Shown one piece after another: positions 1,603-48,590 of a stretch of DNA of 64,000 nucleotides. The position numbers and the translations under genes are program-made. The notes under the pieces are model-generated. The model was not told where the DNA came from and ran no database searches. It saw only the letters and a program-made list of their open reading frames with translations. Location of the stretch: the NCBI GenBank assembly GCA_947492375.1, contig CANLMI010000001.1, forward strand, positions 558,001 to 622,000, read 5' to 3'. This stretch comes from an uncultured Kordiimonas sp. Lineage in GTDB: Bacteria; Pseudomonadota; Alphaproteobacteria; Sphingomonadales; Kordiimonadaceae. Within the stretch, counting starts at the first letter, position 1. Each line of letters begins with the position of its first letter.

Positions 1603-2205
1603 ATGGCTGAAAAAATAGTGGATTTTGGTGTGCCGTTTGAAACTTTTGGCGAATGGCTTGAGGAAGCGAAAGCAAGCGAGATTAACGACCCGACAGGTAT
1701 GGCACTTGCGACAACAACGCCTGATGGCCGCCCAAGTCTTCGTATGGTGCTTTTGAAAGGATGGGATGAGCGCGGATTTGTCTTTTATACCAACCTTGAT
1801 AGCCGTAAAGGGGGTGAGTTAAGCCAAAACGCAAATGTTGCCTTGTTATTTCATTGGAAATCATTGCGTCGTCAAATTAGAATTGAAGGGGCAGTCAGCC
1901 CTGTTAGCGAAGAAGAGGCAGACGAATATTTCGCTTCCCGCCCGCGCGGTAGCCGTATCGGGGCATGGGCGTCAAGGCAATCATCGCCGATGGAAGGGCG
2001 GTTTGAATTTGAAGCTGAAATCGCAAAATACACAACTAAATTCGGTGTTGGTGATATTTCACGCCCGGAAAACTGGTCTGGTTTTCGTGTAAAGCCACAA
2101 GCGCTTGAATTTTGGCGCGACCGAAAGTTCAGGCTGCATGAAAGGCTTCAATACGGTCTTTCCGACACTGAAAACCAGTGGAAACTGACTGAATTATATC
2201 CTTGA
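1603..2205 (+). CDS. pdxH: Pyridoxamine/pyridoxine 5'-phosphate oxidase
   Basis: PdxH is an FMN enzyme that oxidises pyridoxamine or pyridoxine 5'-phosphate to pyridoxal 5'-phosphate in the B6 salvage and synthesis route. The 200-residue length is usual. Visible family blocks are DPTGMALATTTPDGRPS and RMVLLKGWDERGFVFYTN in the FMN-binding barrel, SRKGGEL, SRPRGSRIGAWASRQS, and the C-terminal EFWRDRKFRLHER-type substrate signature ending in LYP. It is monocistronic and is followed by a 126-base gap. PLP is needed by several gene products in this window (cysteine synthase, threonine dehydratase). Confidence 0.96.
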   Translation: MAEKIVDFGVPFETFGEWLEEAKASEINDPTGMALATTTPDGRPSLRMVLLKGWDERGFVFYTNLDSRKGGELSQNANVALLFHWKSLRRQIRIEGAVSPVSEEEADEYFASRPRGSRIGAWASRQSSPMEGRFEFEAEIAKYTTKFGVGDISRPENWSGFRVKPQALEFWRDRKFRLHERLQYGLSDTENQWKLTELYP

Positions 2206-2331
2206 TTATACCCCCGATTATTTGTTTGTTTTGCTACAGCGCCTTTTTGTCTTGGCATAATCATATTCTCTGATTAATCTCTGTCATTAACTTGCTGAAC
2301 TGGGAAGTGACGCGAGGAAAGGGAGAGGATT

Positions 2332-3783
2332 ATGGATGATGTGCAATCAAGTGCAATAAGCGGGGATATTGCTGCGGTTTTGCAAGCGCAGCGAAGTGCC
2401 TATATAGCGGAAGGACACATTAGTGCCGAAGTGCGCATTGATCGCCTGAAACGGGCCTTGAATATTGTTCTTGAGCATCAGGATGATTTTATTTGTCTCA
2501 TCAGCGAAGATTTTGGAAACCGGTCGGCGGGGACAACGCTGTTCGCGGATGTCGCTGCAAGTGTTAGTGCCCTGAAGGATGCGATCAAGCATGTCAGAAA
2601 GTGGATGAAACCATCAAAGCGTTCGCTTGCGTTCCCATTTGGTTTGATGGGGGCAAAGGGGCGTGTGGTTCCACAGCCAAAAGGTGTAGTTGGCCTTATC
2701 ACGCCTTGGAATTTCCCGATGACTATGGTGTTTGTCCCACTTGCGCAGATGTTGGCAGCGGGCAACCGTGTGATGATCAAACCATCTGAACACACATCAA
2801 AAACGTCTGCTTTCTATAAACAGGTTTTTGAGCAGGCATTTGATACGTCTGAGGTTGCGGTCATTAACGGCGGCGTTGAAACCAGTCAGGTATTTTCAAG
2901 CCAACCGTTTGATCACTTGATGTTCACAGGTGCCCCTTCAATCGGTAAACTTATTATGCGATCCGCGAGTGAAAATCTTGTGCCAGTAACGCTTGAACTT
3001 GGTGGTAAGAGCCCGGTGATTGTTGGCGACAGTGCAGACCTTGATATGACCGTAAAGCGGGTTGCCATGTGGAAAAACGCCAATGCAGGCCAAATCTGCC
3101 TCGCACCAGATTATATTAATATTCAAAAGGGGCGTGAGGAAGAGTTTGTGCAGAAATACACTGATGCAGTTACTTCCATGTTTCCGAATATGTTGGCGAA
3201 TGATGACTATACATCAATTATTTCCAAGCGGCATAAGGAACGCTTGGAAGGATATTTGGATGATGCTCGAGACAAGGGTGCTGATGTGCGGATCATTAAT
3301 CCTTTGAACGAGGACTTTGCAGGGCAAAATCACTCAAACAAAATGCCCCCTGCGTTAATTCTTAACCCAACCGACGATATGAAGGTCATGCAAGAGGAAA
3401 TTTTCGGGCCAATTTTACCTGTTAGAACTGTTGATACTGTTAAAGGCGCTGTTGATTATGTGAATAGCCGGGAGCGCCCGCTTGCGCTTTATTATTTCGG
3501 TGACGATAGTGCTGAAGAGCAAAGCGTTATTGAAAATACAATATCAGGCAGCGTTTGCATAAATGATCTTGTTTGGCAGGGGGGGCATGAGAATTTACCC
3601 TTTGGCGGCGTTGGTAATAGCGGCATGGGTCACTATCATGGCTATGACGGGTTTCTTGAGTTTTCCCATCAAAAATCTGTTCTAAAGCATCCAAAGCTCG
3701 ATTTGAACAAACTCGCAGCGCTTATTCCACCTTATAGTGACGGTAAGCTTGAAAAAAGCATGAAAAGCCGGATTGGTAAATAA
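2332..3783 (+). CDS. Aldehyde dehydrogenase, coniferyl-aldehyde dehydrogenase type
   Basis: This 483-residue NAD(P)-dependent aldehyde dehydrogenase oxidises an aldehyde to the acid. The Rossmann and catalytic signatures are intact: PWNFP with Asn127, ELGGK with general base Glu222, and catalytic Cys256 in NAGQICLAPD. The C-terminal GGVGNSGMGHYHGYDGF block and overall sequence resemble the coniferyl aldehyde dehydrogenase (CalB) branch, which also includes fatty-aldehyde oxidisers. A strong purine-rich ribosome site (AGGAAAGGGAGAGG) precedes the ATG. It is the first gene of an operon and the next start lies only 9 bases after its stop. The true substrate cannot be read from sequence. Confidence 0.88.
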   Translation: MDDVQSSAISGDIAAVLQAQRSAYIAEGHISAEVRIDRLKRALNIVLEHQDDFICLISEDFGNRSAGTTLFADVAASVSALKDAIKHVRKWMKPSKRSLAFPFGLMGAKGRVVPQPKGVVGLITPWNFPMTMVFVPLAQMLAAGNRVMIKPSEHTSKTSAFYKQVFEQAFDTSEVAVINGGVETSQVFSSQPFDHLMFTGAPSIGKLIMRSASENLVPVTLELGGKSPVIVGDSADLDMTVKRVAMWKNANAGQICLAPDYINIQKGREEEFVQKYTDAVTSMFPNMLANDDYTSIISKRHKERLEGYLDDARDKGADVRIINPLNEDFAGQNHSNKMPPALILNPTDDMKVMQEEIFGPILPVRTVDTVKGAVDYVNSRERPLALYYFGDDSAEEQSVIENTISGSVCINDLVWQGGHENLPFGGVGNSGMGHYHGYDGFLEFSHQKSVLKHPKLDLNKLAALIPPYSDGKLEKSMKSRIGK

Positions 3784-3792
3784 GGTGTAATC

Positions 3793-4941
3793 ATGAACTT
3801 TTCCTTTGATACCGTTCGCTCAATTCTTGTTGAAGATCATGCGGCTGCCAATTTAGGCGCTATATTGCAGGGCCGTTTCGAACCGTCATGTTGCTTCGTT
3901 GTTACTGATAAATGCCTCAGATCACTTGGTCTTGTTGATGCTGCGATACGGTCGTTAAATGAGCATGGCTTTAATGCTATTGTTTATGATGATGTGGTTG
4001 CTGATCCGCCTGAGGATAGTATTTTAAAAGCTGTTGATGCTGCAAAACAATCAAATTGCCAGATTGTTATTGGTTTTGGCGGCGGTAGCCCGATGGATGT
4101 GGCAAAACTTGTTGCTGTGCTTCTTAAAGGTAAGCAACAACTTGATACCATGTACGGGATTGGTCAGATTACGTCTGATCGTGTTTCACTTATTCAAGTT
4201 CCGACTACGTCTGGTACAGGATCTGAAGTGACGCCGATATCAATTGTAACAACAGGGGAAGCAACAAAAATGGGTGTTGTTGACCCTGTTTTATATGCGG
4301 ACCTGGCGCTATTGGATGCAACATTAACCTTTGATCTTCCAGTGCATGTTACTGCTGCGACTGGTATTGATGCGATGGTTCATGCCTTAGAGGCGTACAC
4401 TACGCGGCATAAGAAAAATCCGGTTTCTGATGCTCTTGCCTGTCAGGCCTTTCATCTTTTGGGGCAGAATATTCTGACAGTATGTAAAGACGGAAAAAAT
4501 TTGAATGCGCGCCGAAATATGCTGGTGGGGGCAATGCTTGCAGGGCAGGCGTTTGCCAATGCACCCGTGGCAGCGGTTCATGCGCTTGCATACCCACTGG
4601 GTGGTCATTTCCATGTGCCGCACGGGCTCTCTAACTCGCTTGTTCTCCCATATGTGATGGAGTTTAATATGGCTGAGGCTGGTAGCGCATACGCTGAGTT
4701 CGCAGCTATTTTAGGTATTAAAGAACGTACAGATACGGCGAGTGCACAGGCCTTGATCAAGTGGTTTCAAAATGTTGCCGTTGAAGCCGGTATTGAGACA
4801 CGCCTCCGCGATGTTGGTGTAAAAGAGAGTGACATCGATATGCTTGCAGATAATGCAATGCTGCAAACCCGCTTGCTTGTTAATAACCCAAGAGAAGTGC
4901 TGCGCGATGATGCTTATAAAATTTACGAGGCAGCATGGTGA
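3793..4941 (+). CDS. Iron-containing (group III) alcohol dehydrogenase
   Basis: This 382-residue enzyme interconverts an alcohol and an aldehyde with NAD(P). The nucleotide-binding GGGSPMD motif is at 96-102, and the likely metal ligands are Asp193, His197, His263 and His277 (the latter two in AVHALAYPLG and HVPHGLSN). The start codon follows the aldehyde dehydrogenase stop by 9 bases and its own stop overlaps the next gene by 7 bases, indicating translational coupling. Paired with the upstream dehydrogenase it would give a two-step alcohol to aldehyde to acid oxidation; that pairing is inferred from position. Confidence 0.88.
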   Translation: MNFSFDTVRSILVEDHAAANLGAILQGRFEPSCCFVVTDKCLRSLGLVDAAIRSLNEHGFNAIVYDDVVADPPEDSILKAVDAAKQSNCQIVIGFGGGSPMDVAKLVAVLLKGKQQLDTMYGIGQITSDRVSLIQVPTTSGTGSEVTPISIVTTGEATKMGVVDPVLYADLALLDATLTFDLPVHVTAATGIDAMVHALEAYTTRHKKNPVSDALACQAFHLLGQNILTVCKDGKNLNARRNMLVGAMLAGQAFANAPVAAVHALAYPLGGHFHVPHGLSNSLVLPYVMEFNMAEAGSAYAEFAAILGIKERTDTASAQALIKWFQNVAVEAGIETRLRDVGVKESDIDMLADNAMLQTRLLVNNPREVLRDDAYKIYEAAW

Positions 4942-37188: not shown

Positions 37189-37301
37189 AACATTATTTGC
37201 AAGGACGTGTCGGCTTCTTTTAGCTATAAGTAGCGCATATTTTCTGCTGCTTGTTGGCAGCAAAAGCAATGTAATCAGTGTCTATTATGAGGAGTGAAAA
37301 T

Positions 37302-38420
37302 ATGCTCATTGGTGTTCCTAAAGAAATTAAAAACCGCGAGTACCGGGTTGGTTTAACGCCTGCATCTGTTCGAGAACTTATTGGTCATGGCCATAGTGTT
37401 ATCGTACAAAAGAATGCTGGTGCTGAGATTGGCTTTAGTGATGAGATGTATACGACAGCAGGCGCATCAATAAAAGAAACTGCCTCTGAAATATTTGCCG
37501 CCGCTGATATGATTGTAAAAGTAAAAGAACCTCAACCAATTGAGTGTGAAATGCTTCGTGAAGGTCAGATTCTATATACGTATCTTCACCTTGCGCCGGA
37601 CCCTGTTCAGACACAGGGTTTGATAAAGTCTGGTGCTATTGCAATCGCTTATGAAACAGTAACCGATGACTTTGGCGGTTTACCACTTTTGGCACCAATG
37701 TCTGAAGTTGCCGGTAGAATGTCAATTCAGGCCGGTGCTCATGCCCTTGAAATGAGCCAGGGCGGACGTGGGATGCTTCTAGGCGGTGTGCCCGGTGTAG
37801 CGCCAGCAAAAGTAACGATTATTGGCGGCGGTGTTGTAGGCACTAATGCAGCTAGAATGGCTGTTGGTATGGGGGCGGATGTTGTTATTCTTGATCGTTC
37901 AATACGCCGAATGCAGCAGTTAGACGATATTTTCCAAGGGCGCGTTAAAACCATTTATTCGACACAGGATGCTGTCGATGAACATGTGCTATGTGCTGAT
38001 TTAACGGTAGGCGCTGTTTTAATACCAGGTGCCGCAGCACCAAAGCTTGTAAGCCGTAATATGATTGCGAAAATGCCTCGGGGCTCTGTACTTGTGGATG
38101 TGGCTATTGATCAAGGTGGATGTTTTGAGACCTCGAAGGCTACAACCCATGAGGAACCTACATATATTGTTGATGAGGTTGTTCATTATTGTGTTGCCAA
38201 TATGCCGGGCGGTGTTGCGAGAACATCAACGTTAGCTCTTAATAATGCAACACTACCGCACGCTGTAGCTATTGCGAACAAGGGCTGGAAACAAGCCTTG
38301 CAAGATGACAAGCATTTGCTTCAAGGGTTAAATGTCTGCGAAGGCAAGATCACATATGAAGCAGTTGCCCGCGATCAAAATCTTACTTATGTTGCAGCAC
38401 AGGATGTGCTTGCTGGTTAG
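37302..38420 (+). CDS. ald: Alanine dehydrogenase
   Basis: This enzyme of about 372 residues oxidatively deaminates L-alanine to pyruvate and ammonia with NAD. MLIGVPKEIKNREYRVGLTP is the family start. Lys in VKVKEPQ and His in YTYLHLAPD are the catalytic pair, and GGGVVGTNAARMA is the NAD loop. The ATG at 37302 follows GAGGAGTG and is preferred over a GTG at 37278. Divergent from the Lrp gene, followed 16 bases later by asparaginase, so both are probably one amino-acid catabolic operon. Confidence 0.95.
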   Translation: MLIGVPKEIKNREYRVGLTPASVRELIGHGHSVIVQKNAGAEIGFSDEMYTTAGASIKETASEIFAAADMIVKVKEPQPIECEMLREGQILYTYLHLAPDPVQTQGLIKSGAIAIAYETVTDDFGGLPLLAPMSEVAGRMSIQAGAHALEMSQGGRGMLLGGVPGVAPAKVTIIGGGVVGTNAARMAVGMGADVVILDRSIRRMQQLDDIFQGRVKTIYSTQDAVDEHVLCADLTVGAVLIPGAAAPKLVSRNMIAKMPRGSVLVDVAIDQGGCFETSKATTHEEPTYIVDEVVHYCVANMPGGVARTSTLALNNATLPHAVAIANKGWKQALQDDKHLLQGLNVCEGKITYEAVARDQNLTYVAAQDVLAG

Positions 38421-38436
38421 GTAAAAGGATATACGA

Positions 38437-39444
38437 ATGAATGACTTGCCTTTAATTGACGTTTATGCACTTGGAGGCACGATCGCAATGACACCTGATC
38501 AGTCTTTGGCTGGTCAGGTTGATGCTGTCTCACCGTCGTTAACAGCAGATGATTTAGTTAAATCAATTCCTCAACTTGAAAAAATTGCGCGCATTAGAGC
38601 GGAAACGCTTAGTAATGTTGCAAGCGCAAATCTTGATTTCAGTATTATTAAAAAACTGTGTGATACCGCAGCCAAAAGCGATGCCGATGCAATTGTTGTA
38701 ACACAAGGCACCGACACATTAGAAGAAACATCCTTTTTAGCAAAATTAATTTATAGCGGCGATAAACCTATTATTTTTACAGGGGCTATGCGCGCTCCCA
38801 ATCAGCTTAGTAGTGATGGTGCTGCAAATCTATATACTGCTGTTTTAACAGCAACTAAAGTGCAGTCTGTTAACGTTTTCGTTGTTATGGATAATCAAAT
38901 TCATGATCCTGTATTTGTTGAGAAAACGCACACGTGGGCTCTTGATGCTTTTCGGTCTGAATATGGTAGTGACGGATATATTTCCGAAGACCGTATTTTT
39001 TGGCAGAAACCACCATCTGAACTAAGTGATGGTATTCTTGAAATGTTCCATGAAATAGACGCTGTTGCACCAGTCGTGTGTATTTCGATTTCGCTTGGTG
39101 ATAACGGAGCAATTCTTGATCTTGTGGAAGATAGATATCATGGGCTTGTAGTAGATGCATACGGTGCGGGCCATGTATCAGAACAATGGGCTGAAAAGTT
39201 AAATAATATAGCGCGACGTTTGCCTGTTATCATTGCAAGTCAGACATCTAACGGGCGCGTTTTGGAAGCGACTTATGGCTATAAAGGTGCTGAAATTGAC
39301 TTATTTTCGAATGGTATGATTTCCGCTGGTAATTTGAATGCGAAAAAAGCACGTATATTACTTTCTTTATTAGTCGCGAAAAAAACCGCGGATGTTAAGA
39401 AGTCCTTTACCCATATCATGGATAGATTAATCACAGTGAAGTGA
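38437..39444 (+). CDS. L-asparaginase
   Basis: This 335-residue asparaginase hydrolyses asparagine to aspartate and ammonia. Both catalytic threonine segments are visible: ALGGTIAMT near residue 14 and VVTQGTDTLEETSF near 88, with GAMRAPNQLSSDGAANL in the middle. There is no signal peptide, so a cytoplasmic enzyme is likely even though the sequence also resembles type II forms. A short spacing (16 bases) behind ald suggests joint control by the Lrp regulator. Confidence 0.9.
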   Translation: MNDLPLIDVYALGGTIAMTPDQSLAGQVDAVSPSLTADDLVKSIPQLEKIARIRAETLSNVASANLDFSIIKKLCDTAAKSDADAIVVTQGTDTLEETSFLAKLIYSGDKPIIFTGAMRAPNQLSSDGAANLYTAVLTATKVQSVNVFVVMDNQIHDPVFVEKTHTWALDAFRSEYGSDGYISEDRIFWQKPPSELSDGILEMFHEIDAVAPVVCISISLGDNGAILDLVEDRYHGLVVDAYGAGHVSEQWAEKLNNIARRLPVIIASQTSNGRVLEATYGYKGAEIDLFSNGMISAGNLNAKKARILLSLLVAKKTADVKKSFTHIMDRLITVK

Positions 39445-39474: not shown

Positions 39475-40524
39475 GTGGAAACTTCCAATTCAGCGACAAA
39501 TGAAGATAAGGGATATATATTTTTCTGGTGTAAGAGTCGTGAGCTCTTCAGGAAAATAAATACACGCTTTGACGAAAAATCAAGAGTTCAAACAGACGAT
39601 TTTTTTGCATCTGTTCGTTGTTACGAAGTTGTTGATCATGAAACCAAAATTACCCAGTTAAGCGAAATTTTAAACGAAGAAGAACAAGCGAAAATAAAAA
39701 TCTTGTTCTCTTATTCCTTATCACCAACGATGAATGAATTCGGCTTTATTCGCACAATTGCACAATTCAATATGGAAGCGTCTGCCCGCTGGCTTTGTGA
39801 GTTGTTGGTTGACCGGCGGTATAAGCCTCTTATGCAGCCGATAGTCAGCGCCCGTGATACATCGGATATTATGGGGTATGAGTTTTTGTTTAGAGGGCTT
39901 TACCCTGATGGACGCGTTATCTCTGCGCCTTATATGTTTGGGACAGCAGAAAAACTGGACATGTTGTACCCTCTGGATTTAGCAGCAGGAGAGGTTGCTG
40001 CAACATACGCTAAAAAGTTTGGTGTAAAAGAAAAAGTATTCATCAACGTGCTGCCTGAATCTATCCAGTCTGAAGAAGCCTTTAAAGCGTGGCTTTCCAG
40101 TGTAACACAGAATTTTGAGTATGCAGACAATCAGCTTGTCTTTGAATTGGTGGAGAGCCAGCAAATACCTGACGTTGATATAATGTGTAAAGTTATCGAG
40201 CTTTTACATGAGCATAAAGTTCAATTCGCTCTTGATGATTTTGGTACTGGTTTCAATAACCTGGTAACATTGACAGAAGTCAGACCTGATTACGTAAAGA
40301 TAGATAAATCCTTAACAGACAATATCATGCGCGATCCGTTTAAATGGAATTTGCTTGCTAACATAGTGGATGCTGCGAAGCAGGTGGGTACAAAAGTGAT
40401 TGCAGAAGGTGTTGAAGACGAAGAGACATGTGCAATTTTAAAAGATGTAGACGTTGATTATATGCAGGGATATTTCTTTGGATATCCAAGCGATAAGCCA
40501 GTTGGGTATGATAACGATACATAA
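39475..40524 (+). CDS. EAL-domain cyclic-di-GMP phosphodiesterase
   Basis: This 349-residue protein has an unassigned N-terminal region (about 1-105) and a C-terminal EAL domain (about 110-345). The signature EAL is EFL (Glu136), and the other catalytic residues are conserved: Asn191, Glu224 in FELVES, Asp254-Asp255 in LDDFGTG, Lys275, Glu311 in AEGVE and Gln331 in MQGYFFG. It is therefore probably active in hydrolysing c-di-GMP. No GGDEF or membrane segment is seen. The start is GTG 39475. The EAL-only architecture with a novel N-terminus may sense a cytosolic signal. Confidence 0.85.
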   Translation: METSNSATNEDKGYIFFWCKSRELFRKINTRFDEKSRVQTDDFFASVRCYEVVDHETKITQLSEILNEEEQAKIKILFSYSLSPTMNEFGFIRTIAQFNMEASARWLCELLVDRRYKPLMQPIVSARDTSDIMGYEFLFRGLYPDGRVISAPYMFGTAEKLDMLYPLDLAAGEVAATYAKKFGVKEKVFINVLPESIQSEEAFKAWLSSVTQNFEYADNQLVFELVESQQIPDVDIMCKVIELLHEHKVQFALDDFGTGFNNLVTLTEVRPDYVKIDKSLTDNIMRDPFKWNLLANIVDAAKQVGTKVIAEGVEDEETCAILKDVDVDYMQGYFFGYPSDKPVGYDNDT

Positions 40525-40540: not shown

Positions 40541-40975
40541 TTATAAATTTATTTTTTCTAATTTTCCCAAAAGCTCTTCGAGTAAACTTTGATCATTCAA
40601 GCTTAATTGTTTCATCATCTTGTTTTCATAATCAATCGCGAGCGGCGCAACCTCGTTATAGACCTCGCTACCGCTTTTCGAGAGCGATAGAACCGAGCGC
40701 CTTTTATCCTCATTAGCGAATTTTCTGATCAGTAACCCAGATGTGATAAGTTTGTTCACAGCCCGTGAGACAGCAACTTTATCCATTGCTGTTTTTTGAG
40801 CAACAAAGCCCGCTGACACTTCTGAACTTTCGCCTAAAACCGCAATAACACGCCATTCTGGTAATGAGATTTGGAATTGTTCTTCATAGCGATCGGCAAT
40901 TGCACGGCTTATCCTGTTGGATAAAACCGACAAACGGTAGGGCAGGAACTCTTGTAATTTCAGGGTCGTTTTCAC
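40541..40975 (-). CDS. MarR family transcriptional regulator
   Basis: This 144-residue winged-helix regulator is divergent from hpd. The helix-turn-helix and wing are at about 45-105 ([23 protein letters not shown] recognition region and [17 protein letters not shown] wing). A MarR-type repressor next to hpd and with a perfect 26-base palindrome in the shared spacer points to local control of phenylalanine/tyrosine catabolism. The ligand is unknown; a pathway aromatic intermediate is the natural guess. Confidence 0.88.
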
Positions 40976-41100: not shown

Positions 41101-42189
41101 ATGGCTGATCTATTTGAAAATCCAATGGGATTATGCGGATTTGAGTTTGTTGAATTTACCGCACCTGAAAAAGGCATTGTTGAACCTGTTTTTGAAGCAA
41201 TGGGTTTTTCCGCAGTTGCGAAGCATCGCTCAAAAGATGCTACATTATGGCGTCAGGGCGGTATCAACTTTATTGTCAATTATGAGCCGAAAAGCCCCGC
41301 AGCTTATTACGCAGAAGAGCACGGCCCCAGCGCATGTGGCCTCGCTTTCCGTGTTAAAGACGCACAGTTTACATACAATAAACTCATTGAAATGGGTGCG
41401 CAGCCGGTTGATGTTCCAACGGGTCCGATGGAACTGCGTTTGCCTGCAATCAAGGGTATCGGCGGAGCTCCGCTTTATCTGATTGATCGCTTTGAAGAAG
41501 GTAGCAGCATCTACGATATCGACTTTGAATGGTTTGAAGGTGTTGACCGCAACCCCGAGGGATGTGGGTTCAACATTATCGATCATCTAACGCACAATGT
41601 ATATCGTGGCCGGATGGATTACTGGGCAGAGTTTTATGAAAAGTTCTTTAACTTCAAGGAAATTCGCTTTTTTGATATTAAGGGTGAGTATACAGGCCTG
41701 AAATCTAAAGCACTTACAGCACCTGACGGCATGATCCGTATCCCGCTTAATGAAGAAGCGCAGGGCGGTAAGGGCCAGATTGAAGAGTTCCTCATGGCGT
41801 ATAACGGCGAAGGTATTCAGCATATTGCCTTCTCTTGTGATGATTTGATTGCATGTTGGGACCGCCTCAAGAAACAAGGTGTTAAGTTTATGACACCACC
41901 GCCAAACACATATTATGATATGCTTGATGAGCGCTTGCCGGGCCACGGCGAGCCTGCTGATGAATTGAAAGCGCGCGGAATTCTACTTGATGGAACTACC
42001 GAAGGTGATGAGCCACGTTTACTTCTTCAGATTTTCTCTGAAAATGCGCTTGGCCCAGTTTTCTTCGAATTCATTCAACGTAAAGAAGATGATGGCTTCG
42101 GTGAAGGTAACTTTAAGGCACTATTTGAATCAATCGAGCGTGACCAGATCGCCCGTGGTGTGTTAGAAGTGGATGAAAGCGCAGCATAA
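41101..42189 (+). CDS. hpd: 4-hydroxyphenylpyruvate dioxygenase
   Basis: This 362-residue Fe(II) enzyme of the VOC superfamily converts 4-hydroxyphenylpyruvate to homogentisate in tyrosine degradation. The iron ligands are His162 (IIDHLTHN), His241 (IQHIAFSC) and Glu323 (FFEFIQRK). The N-terminal GFEFVEF and C-terminal [21 protein letters not shown] blocks are typical. The start is ATG 41101, behind AAGGAAAA; the frame is open further upstream across the operator, but that stretch is not coding. First gene of the aromatic amino-acid operon. Confidence 0.95.
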
Positions 42190-42236
42190 TTTGGGCTTTG
42201 GTAAATTGATTTTGGCGTTTGTAAGAGGATTATCAC

Positions 42237-42779
42237 ATGGAATTAAAACGTATTCATCATGTTGCATATCGGTGTAAGGATGCGAAAGAAACCGTTGAGT
42301 TTTATCAAAAGCATTTGAATATGGATTTCCAGCTTGCAATCGCCGAAGATCATGTGCCGTCAACTGGAGCCTATGACCCGTATATGCATTTATTTCTGGA
42401 TGCAGGCAATGGTAATGTTTTGGCCTTTTTTGAATTGCCAGAGCAGCCGGAGATGGGCCGAGACGGTAATACGCCGGAATGGGTTCAACATATTGCCTTT
42501 GAAGTTGAGAATATGGATGCCTTATTATCAGCAAAGGAAAGCCTGGAAGCGGCCGGCATTGATGTTTTAGGGCCGACTGAACATACAATTTTCAAATCAA
42601 TCTATTTCTTTGACCCTAATGGGCACCGTCTTGAACTGGCTGCAAATACGGCCAAGCCGGGTATGTTAGAAGAATTAAAGCGTGTAGCCCCTGCAATGTT
42701 AGAGGAATGGTCAAAGACCAAAAAGGCACCAAAGCATGCAGATTGGCTCCATGGCAGAGGTGAATTTAAACCGCAATAA
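42237..42779 (+). CDS. VOC family metalloprotein (glyoxalase/one-domain extradiol dioxygenase fold)
   Basis: This 180-residue single-module VOC protein has candidate metal ligands at the expected places: His8 (RIHHVAY), Glu66 (AFFELP), His85 (WVQHIAF) and Glu133 (HRLELA). That is the ligand set of glyoxalase I, and H8/H85/E133 is that of extradiol dioxygenases. The C-terminal tail (about 145-180) is charged. It sits between hpd and fumarylacetoacetase, where homogentisate 1,2-dioxygenase is expected. Whether it is an isomerase, an accessory or an alternative dioxygenase cannot be settled from sequence. Confidence 0.75.
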   Translation: MELKRIHHVAYRCKDAKETVEFYQKHLNMDFQLAIAEDHVPSTGAYDPYMHLFLDAGNGNVLAFFELPEQPEMGRDGNTPEWVQHIAFEVENMDALLSAKESLEAAGIDVLGPTEHTIFKSIYFFDPNGHRLELAANTAKPGMLEELKRVAPAMLEEWSKTKKAPKHADWLHGRGEFKPQ

Positions 42780-42837
42780 ATGTGATTATGCTTCATAGTC
42801 TTCATCATTTTTAAAGTAGAATTTAGGAACACTATCG

Positions 42838-43845
42838 ATGAAATTAGCTTCATTAAACCAAGGCCGTGACGGCAAACTTGTTGTTGTCTCAAAAGACCTG
42901 TCAAAAATGGCGGATGCAAGCAGTGTTGCAGCAACGCTTCAAAATGCGATTGATGACTGGGCAGACTGTGCACCTGCGCTTCAGGCTATGTATGAAAAAC
43001 TAAATGCTGGTAAAATTTCGGGCGAAGCATTTGATGAGGCAAAATGTGCGTCACCGCTTCCTCGCGCATTCCAGTGGGCTGATGGGTCGGCGTACGTTAA
43101 TCATGTTGAGCTTGTTCGAAAAGCCCGTAATGCAGAGATGCCCGAAAGTTTTTGGCACGACCCTTTGATGTATCAAGGCGGTTCCGATGCCTTTCTTGGC
43201 CCGCGTGAAGATATTGTTTTCCCAACTACACAAGGTTGGGGTGTTGACTTTGAAGCCGAAATCGCTGTGATAACGGATGATGTGCCGCTTGGTGTATACT
43301 CTGATGATGCAGGGTCGCATATCAAATTGTTGATGCTTGTGAATGATGTGTCACTGCGCGGTTTGATCCCTGGCGAACTTGCCAAAGGGTTTGGTTTCTT
43401 TCAGGCAAAGCCATCAAGCGCCTTTAGCCCTGTTTGTATTACACCTGACGAACTTGGCGGTGCATGGGCTGAGAACAAGGTACATTTACCGATTGTTTCG
43501 CACTATAATGGCTCTATGTTTGGTAAACCCGAAGCAGGTGTTGATATGACATTTGATTTCGCGACATTAGTGGCACATGCCGCTAAAACACGGCCGCTTT
43601 CGGCTGGTGCAATTATCGGCTCTGGTACTGTATCGAACAAACTTGATGGTGGCCCTGGTAAGCCGGTTTCAGACGGCGGTGTTGGATATAGCTGTATCGC
43701 GGAAATCCGTATGATCGAAACAATCGAAAATGGCGCGCCTTCAACAAACTTTATGCAATTTGGCGATACTATCAAAATTGAAATGTTTGATGGTGATGGG
43801 CAGTCTATTTTCGGTGCTATCGAACAAAGCGTTAAACAAGGATAA
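42838..43845 (+). CDS. Fumarylacetoacetate hydrolase family protein
   Basis: This protein of 335 residues cleaves fumarylacetoacetate to fumarate and acetoacetate, the last step of tyrosine degradation. Metal-binding acids are in VDFEAEIAVI and the glutamate-rich hairpin; KPSSAFSPVCIT, LPIVSHYNGSMFG and GTVSNKLDGG fit the bacterial FAH form that is shorter than the eukaryotic one. It lies 58 bases after the VOC gene and 26 bases before maleylacetoacetate isomerase. The gene order makes the role secure. Confidence 0.9.
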   Translation: MKLASLNQGRDGKLVVVSKDLSKMADASSVAATLQNAIDDWADCAPALQAMYEKLNAGKISGEAFDEAKCASPLPRAFQWADGSAYVNHVELVRKARNAEMPESFWHDPLMYQGGSDAFLGPREDIVFPTTQGWGVDFEAEIAVITDDVPLGVYSDDAGSHIKLLMLVNDVSLRGLIPGELAKGFGFFQAKPSSAFSPVCITPDELGGAWAENKVHLPIVSHYNGSMFGKPEAGVDMTFDFATLVAHAAKTRPLSAGAIIGSGTVSNKLDGGPGKPVSDGGVGYSCIAEIRMIETIENGAPSTNFMQFGDTIKIEMFDGDGQSIFGAIEQSVKQG

Positions 43846-43871
43846 AGCAACATCAGCCCGGAGCTATTATT

Positions 43872-44531
43872 ATGAGCGAGCGTATATTATTTGGATATTA
43901 TCGATCTTCTGCGGCGTTCCGCGTTCGTATTGCGCTTGCTCTTAAGGGGCTGGATTATGAATACCGGGCAGTTGATTTGAAACCGTCCGCAAATGATCAC
44001 AAGGCGCCCGGATATTTGAAGCTAAACCCACAGGGGAGAGTGCCGTACTTTATTGATCATGGATTTGGTATTGCGCAGTCACCGGCTATTCTGGAATATC
44101 TTGATGAAGTCTATCCAGATGCGGCGTTACTGCCTGCAAAGGCACAAGAACGCGCATGGGTACGCCAATTAGTGAATGTTGTTGGCTGTGATATTCACCC
44201 GCTGAATAACCTTTCAGTATTACAAAAATTAAAAGGCCAGTTTGACGCTGATCAAAGTGCGACCAACGAATGGTATGCATACTGGATAATTGAGGGCTTT
44301 AAGGCATTGGAAGCAATGCTGTTGGATAATAATTACCGTGGTGATTTTTGCTTTGGCAATTTACCAGGGATGGCAGATGTATATCTTGTGCCGCAAATTT
44401 GGAATGCACGGCGGTTTAATGTGGCGCTCGATGCATTCCCGACACTTGAGCGCATCTATGCCGCATGTCAGGAACACCCGGCGTTTATGAAGGCGATGCC
44501 GGAAAATCAGCCGGATGCACCGCGGGAATAG
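43872..44531 (+). CDS. maiA: Maleylacetoacetate isomerase (zeta-class GST)
   Basis: This 219-residue glutathione-dependent isomerase converts maleylacetoacetate to fumarylacetoacetate. The zeta-class GST start GYYRSSAAFRVRIALALKG carries the catalytic Ser pair region, followed by LNPQGRVPYF, QSPAILEYLDE, and NNLSVLQKL in the C-terminal helical domain. It overlaps functionally with the preceding FAH gene in the same operon. The start ATG 43872 has GGAGC upstream. Confidence 0.93.
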   Translation: MSERILFGYYRSSAAFRVRIALALKGLDYEYRAVDLKPSANDHKAPGYLKLNPQGRVPYFIDHGFGIAQSPAILEYLDEVYPDAALLPAKAQERAWVRQLVNVVGCDIHPLNNLSVLQKLKGQFDADQSATNEWYAYWIIEGFKALEAMLLDNNYRGDFCFGNLPGMADVYLVPQIWNARRFNVALDAFPTLERIYAACQEHPAFMKAMPENQPDAPRE

Positions 44532-44596
44532 GGCGACTAAGCTTTTGAGTAACTAAGTATTCCATCAAGTGCAGATGGAGAATGAAGAGGCAAGGA

Positions 44597-45475
44597 ATGT
44601 TAATCAAAACACGATTGGGCAGAACAGTTGAGGTCCGTGAAGATTATACCGTTGACCAACACTGGGAAGACTTCACCGCGGAAGAACATGACCGCTGGGA
44701 CCGGCTTTATGCACGTCAGGGTAAAATACTTCAGGGCAGGGCATGTAAGGAGTTCATGGATGGGCTAGAGCTCTTGAGCCTTTCAGATGGTGGCATTCCA
44801 AACTTTGAAAAACTTTCTGAAAAACTGATGAAGGCAACAGGGTGGCAGGTTGTGGCTGTGCCTGATTTAGTGCCGGATGATGTGTTTTTTGAGCACCTTG
44901 CTAATCGTCGCTTTCCTGCCGGGAATTTTATCCGCAGCGAGGCGCAGCTTGACTATCTTCAGGAGCCGGATGTCTTTCATGATGTTTATGGTCATGTACC
45001 CATGCTCGCAAACCCGGTATTCGCTGATTATATGGAAGCGTACGGCAAAGGTGGGCAGGTTGCAGCAGGGCGCGGCGTCTTACCAAACCTTGCTCGGTTA
45101 TATTGGTACACGGTTGAATTTGGCCTCATTAAAACGGATGAAGGTATGCGAATTTACGGCGCAGGTATCGTCAGTTCAAAATCTGAGAGTATTTTTAGCC
45201 TCGAAGATAATAGCCCTCACCGAATTCATTTTGACCTAGAGCGACTAATGAAAACGGATTACCGTATCGATGACTTCCAGCAAACATATTGGGTTATTGA
45301 AAGCTTTGATGAATTATTAGAGGCGACTTATCAAGATTTTGGCCCGTTATATGACCGCTTGGAACAAGCCGGCGATCCCTTTAAACCTGCGGATATTCTG
45401 GACGGTGATATTGTCTATAATAATGGTACACAGGAATATGCCAATAAGGGTGGGCGGCTAGCGGAAGCTAGTTAA
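44597..45475 (+). CDS. phhA: Phenylalanine 4-monooxygenase
   Basis: This pterin-dependent iron hydroxylase has about 292 residues and converts phenylalanine to tyrosine. The iron ligands are the two His in VFHDVYGHVPML (128 and 133) and Glu174 in YWYTVEFGL; the FIRSEAQLDYLQEPD block forms the pterin site. The start is set at ATG 44597 behind GAAGAGG; an ATG at 44582 would add five residues. No pterin-4a-carbinolamine dehydratase (phhB) is in the window. It completes the Phe to Tyr entry to the hpd route. Confidence 0.93.
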   Translation: MLIKTRLGRTVEVREDYTVDQHWEDFTAEEHDRWDRLYARQGKILQGRACKEFMDGLELLSLSDGGIPNFEKLSEKLMKATGWQVVAVPDLVPDDVFFEHLANRRFPAGNFIRSEAQLDYLQEPDVFHDVYGHVPMLANPVFADYMEAYGKGGQVAAGRGVLPNLARLYWYTVEFGLIKTDEGMRIYGAGIVSSKSESIFSLEDNSPHRIHFDLERLMKTDYRIDDFQQTYWVIESFDELLEATYQDFGPLYDRLEQAGDPFKPADILDGDIVYNNGTQEYANKGGRLAEAS

Positions 45476-45843: not shown

Positions 45844-45900
45844 AACTATTTTAGCTTTAAATACTAAAGTTATAATGCGCACAACTTACACAGCTAATGA

Positions 45901-45934
45901 AAAAGCCCTGTTATCATCTGATAACAGGGCTTTT
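45901..45934. terminator. Strong bidirectional terminator
   Basis: A perfect 16-base stem (AAAAGCCCTGTTATCA with TGATAACAGGGCTTTT) around a 2-base apex is flanked by A and T runs on both sides. It lies between the plus-strand aromatic operon plus ABM gene and the convergent leucine dehydrogenase gene (stop at 45955), so it can end transcription from both directions. Confidence 0.9.
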
Positions 45935-45954
45935 TATTGTTTAAATAAAATATC

Positions 45955-47070
45955 TTACTCAGCAGCGAGCTTTGCTTCGCTGGCTCGTAGAATAATATCT
46001 TCTGCCATTTCGTTTGCGATAATGCCTGTTGGGCGCTCTTCACGGTCGCTGGCTTCAAAAATACGCTTCAACGTATCACCAATGCGAAGAACCTTTGCTT
46101 CACGGGCAGCATCGTCCAGGCGTTCTTTATAAACTTCAGATTCAACAGAAATGATGCCACCAGCATTGATCACATAATCTGGTGCATAAAGAATGCCGCG
46201 TTTACGAAGGTCTTCGTCTTCAACACCTTCACGTTCAAGTTGGTTGTTTGCGGCACCGGCGATGATCGTTGCTTTAATTTCCGGAATAGTTACCGGATTT
46301 AAACCACCACCAAGCGCACAAGGAGCGAACACATCGCAGTCTACAGCGTGGATCGCGTCCGGCTTCACAACAGTTGCAGCACCGCCGTCGAGCACAGCTT
46401 GAATATTTGCATCAACAATATCTGTTACCGTAATTTCAGCACCTGCACTGCGGAGGTGGTTTACGAGATACTGACCAACATGACCAAGGCCCTGAACGGC
46501 AACTTTGATACCATTTAGGTCGTTTTTACCAAGGCGGTGTGCAACCGCGGCTTTGATACCTTCAAATACGCCTAGCGCTGTATGAGGTGACGGATCACCA
46601 GTGCCAAATTCACCCCCTTCAAGTCCGCAAACATAATCGGTTTCAGAAGCAGCAGCCTGAAGCATATCCGGTGATGTGCCAACATCTTCTGCGGCATAGT
46701 ATGAACCGCCAAGACGATTGATGTAACGGCCAAAGGCATGCATTAATTCAGTTGACCCAAGTTTTTTAGGGTTACCAATGATAACAGACTTACCGCCGCC
46801 AAGGCGCAGACCTGCCATAGCGTTTTTGTAACTCATGCCACGTGAGAGTCGAAGCACATCATAAATTGCATCTTCTTCGCCGCGAGAATAGGCGATATCG
46901 CTTGGTGCGCTACTATGCGCAGCCGTATAATCCCAAAAGCGTGTACCGCCAGTTGCAGGGCCCAATGCAGTTGAGTGCACAGCTATTATTGCTTTTAAAC
47001 CTGTCGCTTGGTCACTACAAAATACCACTTGTTCGTGGTTCATGAAGCTACGTGAATCGAATACGGGCAT
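45955..47070 (-). CDS. ldh: Leucine dehydrogenase (Glu/Leu/Phe/Val dehydrogenase family)
   Basis: This 371-residue enzyme oxidatively deaminates leucine and other branched-chain amino acids to 2-oxo acids with NAD. GPATGGTRFWDY, LRLGGGKSVIIGNP (catalytic Lys), AAEDVGTSPDM and the NAD loop VQGLGHVGQYLV are present. It fits as the first step of the leucine route encoded on the same strand just upstream (isovaleryl-CoA dehydrogenase and methylcrotonyl-CoA carboxylase). GAGAGGAAA precedes the ATG. It has its own upstream spacer of 290 bases. Confidence 0.92.
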   Translation of the reverse strand: MPVFDSRSFMNHEQVVFCSDQATGLKAIIAVHSTALGPATGGTRFWDYTAAHSSAPSDIAYSRGEEDAIYDVLRLSRGMSYKNAMAGLRLGGGKSVIIGNPKKLGSTELMHAFGRYINRLGGSYYAAEDVGTSPDMLQAAASETDYVCGLEGGEFGTGDPSPHTALGVFEGIKAAVAHRLGKNDLNGIKVAVQGLGHVGQYLVNHLRSAGAEITVTDIVDANIQAVLDGGAATVVKPDAIHAVDCDVFAPCALGGGLNPVTIPEIKATIIAGAANNQLEREGVEDEDLRKRGILYAPDYVINAGGIISVESEVYKERLDDAAREAKVLRIGDTLKRIFEASDREERPTGIIANEMAEDIILRASEAKLAAE

Positions 47071-47289
47071 GAAATTTCCTCTCTTATTGTCCCGTTGACA
47101 TACGGATCAAACTATACAATCCCCATTTGGTATTCTGTTACCCGAAATTACCATGCTGCATAATTTGATTGTTGCGCGAAGTATCTCAGAAAATGAACGA
47201 AATGAGCTTTCGAATATTGCGCAAATTAGTAATTAAATTACAAAATAAACGCAATAAATCTTGTATAATTATTTCGTGATGTGAAAAGT

Positions 47290-47332
47290 AAGTTTGACGA
47301 GTTGATTTTTGATAAAATTTCTCGTCAAACTT
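47290..47332 (-). terminator. Inverted repeat, possible terminator after isovaleryl-CoA dehydrogenase
   Basis: Arms AAGTTTGACGAG and CTCGTCAAACTT are perfect over 12 bases around a 19-base loop, 29 bases downstream of the isovaleryl-CoA dehydrogenase stop. On the minus strand it is followed by ACTTTTC, a weak T-tract. It may be a terminator for the leucine operon, or a regulatory hairpin upstream of ldh (start at 47070). Confidence 0.5.
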
Positions 47333-47360
47333 GAAGTATTTTTTGTTAGTTTCTGAGTCT

Positions 47361-48527
47361 CTACGCTGTTTCTTTAAAGAGCTCACGGCCAATAAGCATC
47401 CGGCGAATTTCGCTCGTGCCGGCACCGATCTCATAAAGTTTCGCATCACGCCAGAAACGGCCTGTATCATATTCGTTGATATAGCCATTACCGCCGAGTG
47501 TTTGAATAGCTTCTCCGGCCATCCATGTTGCTTTTTCGGCAGAATATAAAATACAGCCTGCTGCATCCTTGCGGGTTGTTTCTCCCCGGTCAGCAGCTTC
47601 AGCAACCGAATAAACATAAGAGCGACAAGCGCCCCATGTGGCATACATATCTGCAAGTTTGCCCTGCATAAGCTGGAAGGTACCAATCGGCTTGCCAAAT
47701 TGTTCGCGCTCATGAACATAAGGGATAACCGTATCAAGGCATGCACGCATAATGCCGAGCGGCCCACCGCATAAAACAAGGCGTTCATAGTCAAGGCCAG
47801 ACATCAAAATCCTGACTCCATCACCTTCTTTACCCATAACGTTCTCAAAGGGTACAAAGCAATCTTCAAAGACAAGCTCGCAAGTGTTTGAGCCGCGCAT
47901 ACCAAGCTTGTCCAGTTTTTGCGCAGTTGAAAAACCAGCCATGCCTTTTTCGATAAGAAAGGCAGTTATGCCGTGCTGGTGCGCTTCCATATCTGTTTTT
48001 GCATAAACCACGAGCACATCGGCGTCAGGCCCGTTCGTGATCCACATCTTGTTACCATTAAGGATAAAGCCATCGTTGCGCTTTTCCGCGCGAAGCTTCA
48101 TCGATACAACATCAGATCCCGCACCGGGTTCTGACATGGCAAGCGCGCCTACATGTTCGCCGTTGATTAGCTTGGGGAGGTATTTCTGTTTTTGTTCATG
48201 GCTCGCGTTGCGAGAAATCTGGTTAACGCAAAGATTTGAGTGTGCACCATAACTCAGCGCAACCGAAGCAGATGCCCGGCTGATTTCCTCAATGGCGATT
48301 GTGTGTGCGAGGTAGCCCATACCTGCGCCGCCGTATTCTTCTGAAACCGTAAGGCCAAGAAGACCCAATTCGCCCATTTTTTGCCAAAGGTCCATGGGGA
48401 ATTGATTAGTTTGATCGATTTCTCCTGCACGCGGCGCAATTTCGTCGGCTGCGAACTTGGAAACCATATCGCGGAGCATATCGATTTCTTCGCTATGATT
48501 AAATTTTAGATGAGGAAATTCCAGCAT
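47361..48527 (-). CDS. liuA: Isovaleryl-CoA dehydrogenase
   Basis: This flavoprotein of about 388 residues oxidises isovaleryl-CoA to 3-methylcrotonyl-CoA. The diagnostic feature is the catalytic Glu in [16 protein letters not shown] on the helix used by isovaleryl-CoA dehydrogenase, instead of the usual C-terminal position. [14 protein letters not shown] binds the flavin and [19 protein letters not shown] closes the protein. ATG 48527 follows GAAAGAGAGAAGA; an upstream start would add 13 residues. It is the last gene of the leucine operon. Confidence 0.95.
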
Positions 48528-48590
48528 TCTTCTCTCTTTCCAATAGGTGCTGCGTATAGTGCCCAAACCAATGCAGCAAATAGTTAGTTT

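Follow-up and report, generated by a model that had tools for sequence, protein, structure and literature searches.

A one-domain VOC protein predicted to act as homogentisate 1,2-dioxygenase in a Kordiimonas phenylalanine/tyrosine degradation operon

Gene content of the operon

The stretch of DNA analysed here (the window; 64,000 nucleotides of contig CANLMI010000001.1 from an uncultured Kordiimonas sp.) carries at 41101–45475 a phenylalanine/tyrosine degradation operon of the form hpd–VOC–FAH–maiA–phhA, with all genes on the + strand and, by the positions of the open reading frames (ORFs), intergenic gaps of 26 to 58 nt. Its second gene encodes a small protein of the VOC superfamily which, judged from its kinship and context, is very probably the homogentisate 1,2-dioxygenase of the operon. 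The features of the locus are:

40541..40975, - strand: MarR-family regulator, divergent from hpd (PF12802, 45 bits)
41101..42189, + strand: hpd, 4-hydroxyphenylpyruvate dioxygenase, 362 residues (TIGR01263, 402 bits, cut-off 277)
42237..42779, + strand: VOC gene, predicted homogentisate 1,2-dioxygenase, 180 residues (PF00903, 68.7 bits; kinship to PDB 9U42)
42576..42635, + strand: extradiol-signature-like stretch, VOC residues 114-133 with His116, Tyr123 and Glu133 (pattern match)
42838..43845, + strand: FAH, fumarylacetoacetate hydrolase of the short type, 335 residues (PF01557, 108 bits; PF18288, 91 bits)
43872..44531, + strand: maiA, maleylacetoacetate isomerase, 219 residues (TIGR01262, 269 bits, cut-off 171)
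44582..45475, + strand: phhA, phenylalanine 4-monooxygenase, 297 residues (TIGR01267, 351 bits, cut-off 265)
45900..45935, + strand: terminator-like hairpin with a 16-pair stem, downstream of phhA and before the convergent gene at 45955 (pattern scan only)

The ORFs and family scans agree with the gene set of hpd, FAH, maiA and phhA, the order and the coordinates given in a preliminary description of this DNA, and no HmgA domain was found among the operon genes, as that description had also held.

Families, conserved residues and structure of the VOC protein

The matches of the VOC protein in Pfam at E<=0.001 are to glyoxalase families only, and none is to the domains HgmA_N and HgmA_C. At the same threshold 24 NCBIfam models match it, none of them above its own cut-off. 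Because its scores fall below the curated cut-offs for catechol 2,3-dioxygenase (41 versus 320 bits), HpaD (30 versus 321) and BphC (19 versus 366), the protein is none of these three enzymes; the cut-offs of the glyoxalase and Fos models are likewise unmet (YaeR-type 38.7 versus 140, FosB 38.1 versus 171, glyoxalase I 26 versus 120). The preliminary description had pointed to a 180-residue VOC protein with His8, Glu66, His85 and Glu133. These residues are indeed present, and they are unchanged in all 28 sequences of an alignment comprising the window protein and 27 relatives picked from the 80 loci described below; the orthologue in Acinetobacter baumannii has them too. On the basis of the sequence we propose His8, His85 and Glu133 as putative metal ligands, Glu66 occupying the fourth VOC position. 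A signature of type I extradiol dioxygenases at residues 114-133 is likewise present in all 28 aligned sequences, and 20000 shuffles of the window protein produced it once; this pattern with His, Tyr and the ligand Glu corresponds to PROSITE PS00082.

By sequence the sole close relative in the PDB is 9U42 (E 2.3e-78); in a profile search of PDB sequences, which gave 24 matches at E<=0.001, the next match has an E of 7.5e-12. 9U42, released 2025-07-23, bears the title Homogentisate 1,2-Dioxygenase from Acinetobacter. It is also the top structural match (Z 19.8, root-mean-square deviation 2.4, 70% identity over 165 aligned residues) of a model of the VOC protein built from the 28 sequences, with a predicted local distance difference test score (pLDDT) of 81; a single-sequence fold (pLDDT 61) was set aside. 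Structural matches below 9U42 begin at Z 16.2 and comprise glyoxalase-type proteins, Fos proteins and the one-domain L-DOPA dioxygenase (6ON1/6ON3; Z 13.8 to 14.1), and they reveal a shared fold only. The L-DOPA dioxygenase resembles the window protein in being a small ring-cleaving dioxygenase of the VOC fold, but with 15% identity, and its substrate is of the catechol type. The VOC superfamily also includes the chlorohydroquinone dioxygenases PcpA and LinE, two-domain enzymes; neither is among the 24 profile matches. PcpA is described in PMC3727088 as a non-heme Fe enzyme opening para-dihydroxy rings.

Canonical and short cupin HmgA

The canonical enzyme for this step is the cupin HmgA (TIGR01015, PF04209/PF20510), which shares with the VOC protein the pathway slot and the predicted reaction, and whose fold we take to be unrelated to the VOC fold. 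The preliminary description had proposed a whole-genome search for HmgA, which was carried out on the 3.94-Mb assembly (23 contigs, scored 100% complete). Neither PF04209 nor PF20510 matched at E<=0.001; in the same search 1 of 14 control genomes, Caulobacter, gave a match. With a short, divergent HmgA-like cupin as the query no match was found genome-wide at E<=0.01 either. At the sensitivity of these searches, the first of the two sober alternatives of that description, an hmgA at another place in the genome, is excluded. The operon gene is the sole match to the VOC protein in the genome at E<=0.001.

In many of the fetched alphaproteobacterial loci the short cupin, of about 384 residues, is encoded between hpd and FAH. 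It occupies the same slot, hpd-X-FAH(-maiA), as the VOC gene, while being a cupin and not a VOC protein. Examples are:

L143, 5307-6446: short HmgA-like cupin
L145, 4463-5566: short HmgA-like cupin
L119, 2910-4061: short HmgA-like cupin

The first of these, from the relative G206, stands in the arrangement MarR-hpd-short cupin HmgA-FAH-maiA, that is, the window operon with the ring-opener exchanged. One short cupin scores 101 bits to TIGR01015, the cut-off of which is 510.75. In 21 genomes the short cupin was found by tblastn after escaping the search with PF04209.

Distribution of the VOC protein and of cupin HmgA across genomes

The co-occurrence of the two kinds of ring-opener was examined in 117 hpd-bearing alpha- and gammaproteobacterial genomes. 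Among 241 alphaproteobacterial genomes hpd exceeded the cut-off in 82, the VOC orthologue was found in 17 (16 with hpd, spread over 11 families) and PF04209 in 58; the corresponding figures for 232 gammaproteobacterial genomes are 35, 8 (7 with hpd) and 27. The line for a VOC orthologue was drawn at 220 bits once the scores had shown a gap down to 178 bits; two gammaproteobacterial homologues at 148 and 152 bits, both in genomes with neither enzyme (G423, G326), were left uncounted, and VOC-positive genomes without hpd (G212, G363) stand outside the table. A cupin HmgA relative, canonical or short, was found in 2 of the 23 genomes with hpd and VOC versus 86 of the 94 with hpd and no VOC, the depth of checking being uneven between the two sets. 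Fisher's test gives p = 1.2e-14, ignoring kinship among the genomes; with PF04209 alone and strong matches only, the alphaproteobacterial test gives p = 0.07.

Under PF04209 alone, 29 of the 117 genomes had neither VOC nor HmgA, a result that would have weakened the case for a replacement. In 21 of 28 of these (17 alpha- and 4 gammaproteobacterial; G175 was left out) the short cupin lies next to hpd or FAH in the fetched stretches; it was not seen in the fetched stretches of G054, G181, G183, G291, G323, G326 and G423. One of the latter (G323 C43:9400-12126, locus L167) has an hpd-FAH-maiA cluster whose hpd and FAH matches are about 85 bp apart and in which neither VOC nor cupin HmgA was seen; a further ring-opener or a loss is possible there. 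Checking for the short cupin went deeper in VOC-negative than in VOC-positive genomes: where no genome-wide search was made it was sought around VOC, hpd or FAH within the available stretches, and for G193 and G025 the check rests on coordinates leaving no gap. Among four other VOC carriers searched for the short cupin (G242, G243, G244 and an A. baumannii record) only G243 was positive. The downstream genes do not separate the VOC-only genomes from the 29 with neither enzyme, since maiA is present in 18/21 versus 25/29 and the short-type FAH in 17/21 versus 26/29. Within the window's own order one genome (G009) has a canonical HmgA after hpd and no VOC match, another (G110) has VOC after hpd and no PF04209 match, and in a third (G181) neither VOC nor HmgA was seen.

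Gene neighborhoods of VOC relatives

Gene neighborhoods were compared for the best 80 of at least 593 VOC relatives recovered in the genome scan. At a distance of up to 3 kb from the VOC gene we found hpd in 62, FAH in 58 and maiA in 33 of these loci, with hpd and/or FAH in 77; neither canonical nor short HmgA was seen in any of the 80 in the DNA stretches examined, some of which are short. Betaproteobacteria are represented among them by Massilia, Duganella and Hydrogenophaga. A gap of hmgA-like size between hpd and VOC at one locus (L030) was rejected as a candidate hmgA, as it contains an asparaginase-like ORF, named by eye. The three loci without hpd or FAH nearby (L060, L061, L074; beta- or gammaproteobacterial) carry a flavin aromatic hydroxylase instead, and a Sphaerotilus plasmid likewise combines VOC and fahA with such a hydroxylase; it may be a second supply route to homogentisate. 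Flavin monooxygenases of the PRK08132 type lie near the VOC gene in L093 (5082-6972, accompanied by a DUF2783 gene and an MBL-fold hydrolase), L061 (about 2077-3795) and L125, and are perhaps 3-hydroxyphenylacetate-type hydroxylases feeding homogentisate. A conjugative IncFII plasmid of Enterobacter (L090 7992-11799) carries a compact VOC-MFS transporter-FAH-maiA module, and no other ring-cleaving gene is annotated in the 16.5 kb examined. The plasmid records examined label the VOC gene "VOC family protein".

The Acinetobacter orthologue and pyomelanin

The orthologue in A. baumannii has 126 residues identical to the window protein in a global alignment (180 and 182 residues) and is, by eye, nearly identical to the 9U42 chain. 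It is encoded in a tyrosine pathway locus of the order fahA-maiA-VOC-IclR, with a long-type fahA and with hppD on the opposite strand, unlike the window operon. In a 3.66-Mb A. baumannii record neither PF04209 nor the short cupin gave a match. (Three A. baumannii records of 3.7 to 4.1 Mb in the plasmid collection, among them L092, NZ_CP077849.1, look by their size like chromosomes.) In PMC7646211 no hmgA homologue was found in this species, and a gene for a type I ring-cleaving dioxygenase that lies between hmgC and hmgR is called a distant, probably inactive HmgA homologue; the description fits the VOC gene. PMC9431530 reports that a Tn2006 insertion in 'hmgA' leads to pyomelanin and that a plasmid copy abolishes it. 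The target duplication is stated there as 11-bp and printed with nine letters, CATTTTTTT, which occur once in an 8,516-bp stretch of another A. baumannii strain (4064-4072, - strand), inside the VOC gene at 3989-4537; the number expected in 8.5 kb is 0.94. The name 'hmgA' is used loosely, as the 633-bp 'hmgA' reference given in PMC11945678 matches maiA in size.

Proposed reaction and alternative functions

For the metal, the reaction and its regiochemistry we infer the following scheme. PhhA and Hpd would supply homogentisate from phenylalanine and tyrosine. The VOC protein would bind Fe(II) via His8, His85 and Glu133, then homogentisate and O2, and would open the ring between the carbon bearing the acetate side chain and the adjacent hydroxylated carbon to give maleylacetoacetate. 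MaiA would isomerise this product, and FAH would then split it into fumarate and acetoacetate. Five lines of observation support a VOC ring-opener: 1) the operon itself; 2) the conserved residues; 3) the lack of any HmgA match in the genome; 4) the rarity of genomes with both HmgA and VOC; and 5) the kinship to 9U42. The last two also favor the suggestion of the preliminary description that the VOC protein might be a non-orthologous ring-cleavage enzyme. The exchanged ring-opener in the G206 operon, the nearness of hpd and/or FAH in 77 of the 80 loci, the Enterobacter plasmid module and the locus and reported pigment genetics of A. baumannii point the same way.

Several observations weigh against this assignment. 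The function of 9U42 is known here from the deposition title alone, and the crystal has Zn, not Fe. What equates the published Acinetobacter 'hmgA' with the VOC gene is a match of 9 bases in a different strain, for which the probability of landing in the gene by chance is about 0.06; in 14.5 kb of a second strain CATTTTTTT occurs not only in the VOC gene but also at one site elsewhere. Canonical HmgA and VOC occur together in 2 of the 23 VOC-positive genomes (G195 and G141), and Microbulbifer taiwanensis (G243) has both VOC and the short cupin. The genome-wide search for the short cupin covers 4 of the 23 (G000, G092, G110, G241), and in one of these, G110, it matched a 17-bit stretch with two stops, which was taken as chance. 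In L120, L121, L122, L127, L128 and L132 the VOC gene was seen with neither hpd nor FAH next to it. Among the 21 VOC-positive, HmgA-free genomes, 3 lack maiA and 4 lack the short-type FAH; three of the latter (G258, G357, G001) have a long-type fahA nearby, and in the fourth, G029, no FAH was seen. In G195 and G141 (L120, L121) the VOC orthologue was not seen next to hpd or FAH, and the genome also has a canonical HmgA.

Three alternatives were weighed. The VOC protein could cleave another ring, for instance a hydroxylated product other than homogentisate, the homogentisate itself being excreted as pigment; the adjacency of VOC to the flavin aromatic hydroxylase in L060, L061 and L074, where the stretches examined have no hpd or FAH match, would suit such a role. 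It would leave FAH and maiA without a substrate, and the title of 9U42 and the Acinetobacter pigment genetics reported in PMC9431530 speak against it, so that we regard it as very improbable. A glyoxalase-I-like isomerase or a thiol transferase, e.g. a second maleylacetoacetate isomerase, would accord with the grouping of the protein by Pfam and by fold with glyoxalase I and FosA/FosB, and with all four VOC metal positions being filled. A maiA is, however, already in the operon, no NCBIfam glyoxalase or Fos model (nor that of catechol 2,3-dioxygenase) reaches its cut-off, the extradiol-like signature is present in every aligned sequence, one step of the pathway would be left without an enzyme, and the title of 9U42 again speaks otherwise. 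Since the 70%-identical 9U42 was deposited as a homogentisate 1,2-dioxygenase and VOC and HmgA are seldom found together, the side-reaction or isomerase role that the preliminary description had kept open is unlikely, and the isomerase or transferase version hardly credible. That an hmgA lies elsewhere and the VOC protein performs a side reaction has a parallel in the genomes with both enzymes (G195, G141 and Microbulbifer), but we give it scarcely any credence in a genome scored 100% complete in which the PF04209, PF20510 and short-cupin searches all came back empty.

Regulation and surroundings of the operon

The divergent MarR gene is likely to be the regulator of the operon; 31 of the 80 loci have a MarR relative no more than 3 kb from the VOC gene. 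The pattern scan found 4 terminator-like sites, with 5.2 expected, and the stem at 45900-45935 is the longest, the others having 5 to 8 pairs; two sites on the + strand, with stems of 8 and 5 pairs, lie inside the operon. On the 5' side, at 39475-40524, is a gene for an EAL-domain protein (PF00563, 166 bits). ORFs at 37278-39444 and 45955-48566 were read by eye as alanine dehydrogenase, asparaginase, a leucine/glutamate-type dehydrogenase and acyl-CoA dehydrogenase; by this reading the operon lies in an amino-acid catabolism neighborhood.

Evolutionary and functional implications

A VOC-type homogentisate dioxygenase is already known via 9U42, though barely annotated, and the window protein is not the first of its kind. 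Our literature search, in which subscription journals were thinly covered and longer result lists were viewed in part, turned up no publication dealing with 9U42 or with a homogentisate dioxygenase of the VOC type, and how widely the VOC enzyme stands in for HmgA was not found in the literature searched. The assignment fills a gap in automatic annotation: because the gene is labelled "VOC family protein" and no NCBIfam model scores above its cut-off, genomes of this type would probably be read by pathway tools as having an interrupted tyrosine degradation route. If it is true, the VOC ring-opener of proteobacterial tyrosine breakdown is still unnamed in the annotation examined. It would also give a simple reading of pyomelanin formation in A. 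baumannii, where the gene at the VOC position was set aside in PMC7646211 as a distant, probably inactive HmgA homologue.

We consider it likely that a one-domain VOC enzyme gained the cleavage of homogentisate, a para-diol and hence non-catecholic substrate, without descent from the cupins, and that in alpha-, beta- and gammaproteobacteria it has taken the place of HmgA, in many cases within the very same operon slot, and has also spread on plasmids, with the exclusion of HmgA drawn from the alpha- and gammaproteobacterial genomes. There would then be three interchangeable ring-openers for this step: 1) canonical HmgA; 2) the short HmgA-like cupin; and 3) the VOC enzyme. Tyrosine breakdown in these bacteria would offer a good case of non-orthologous displacement, in which two unrelated folds alternate in one operon slot.

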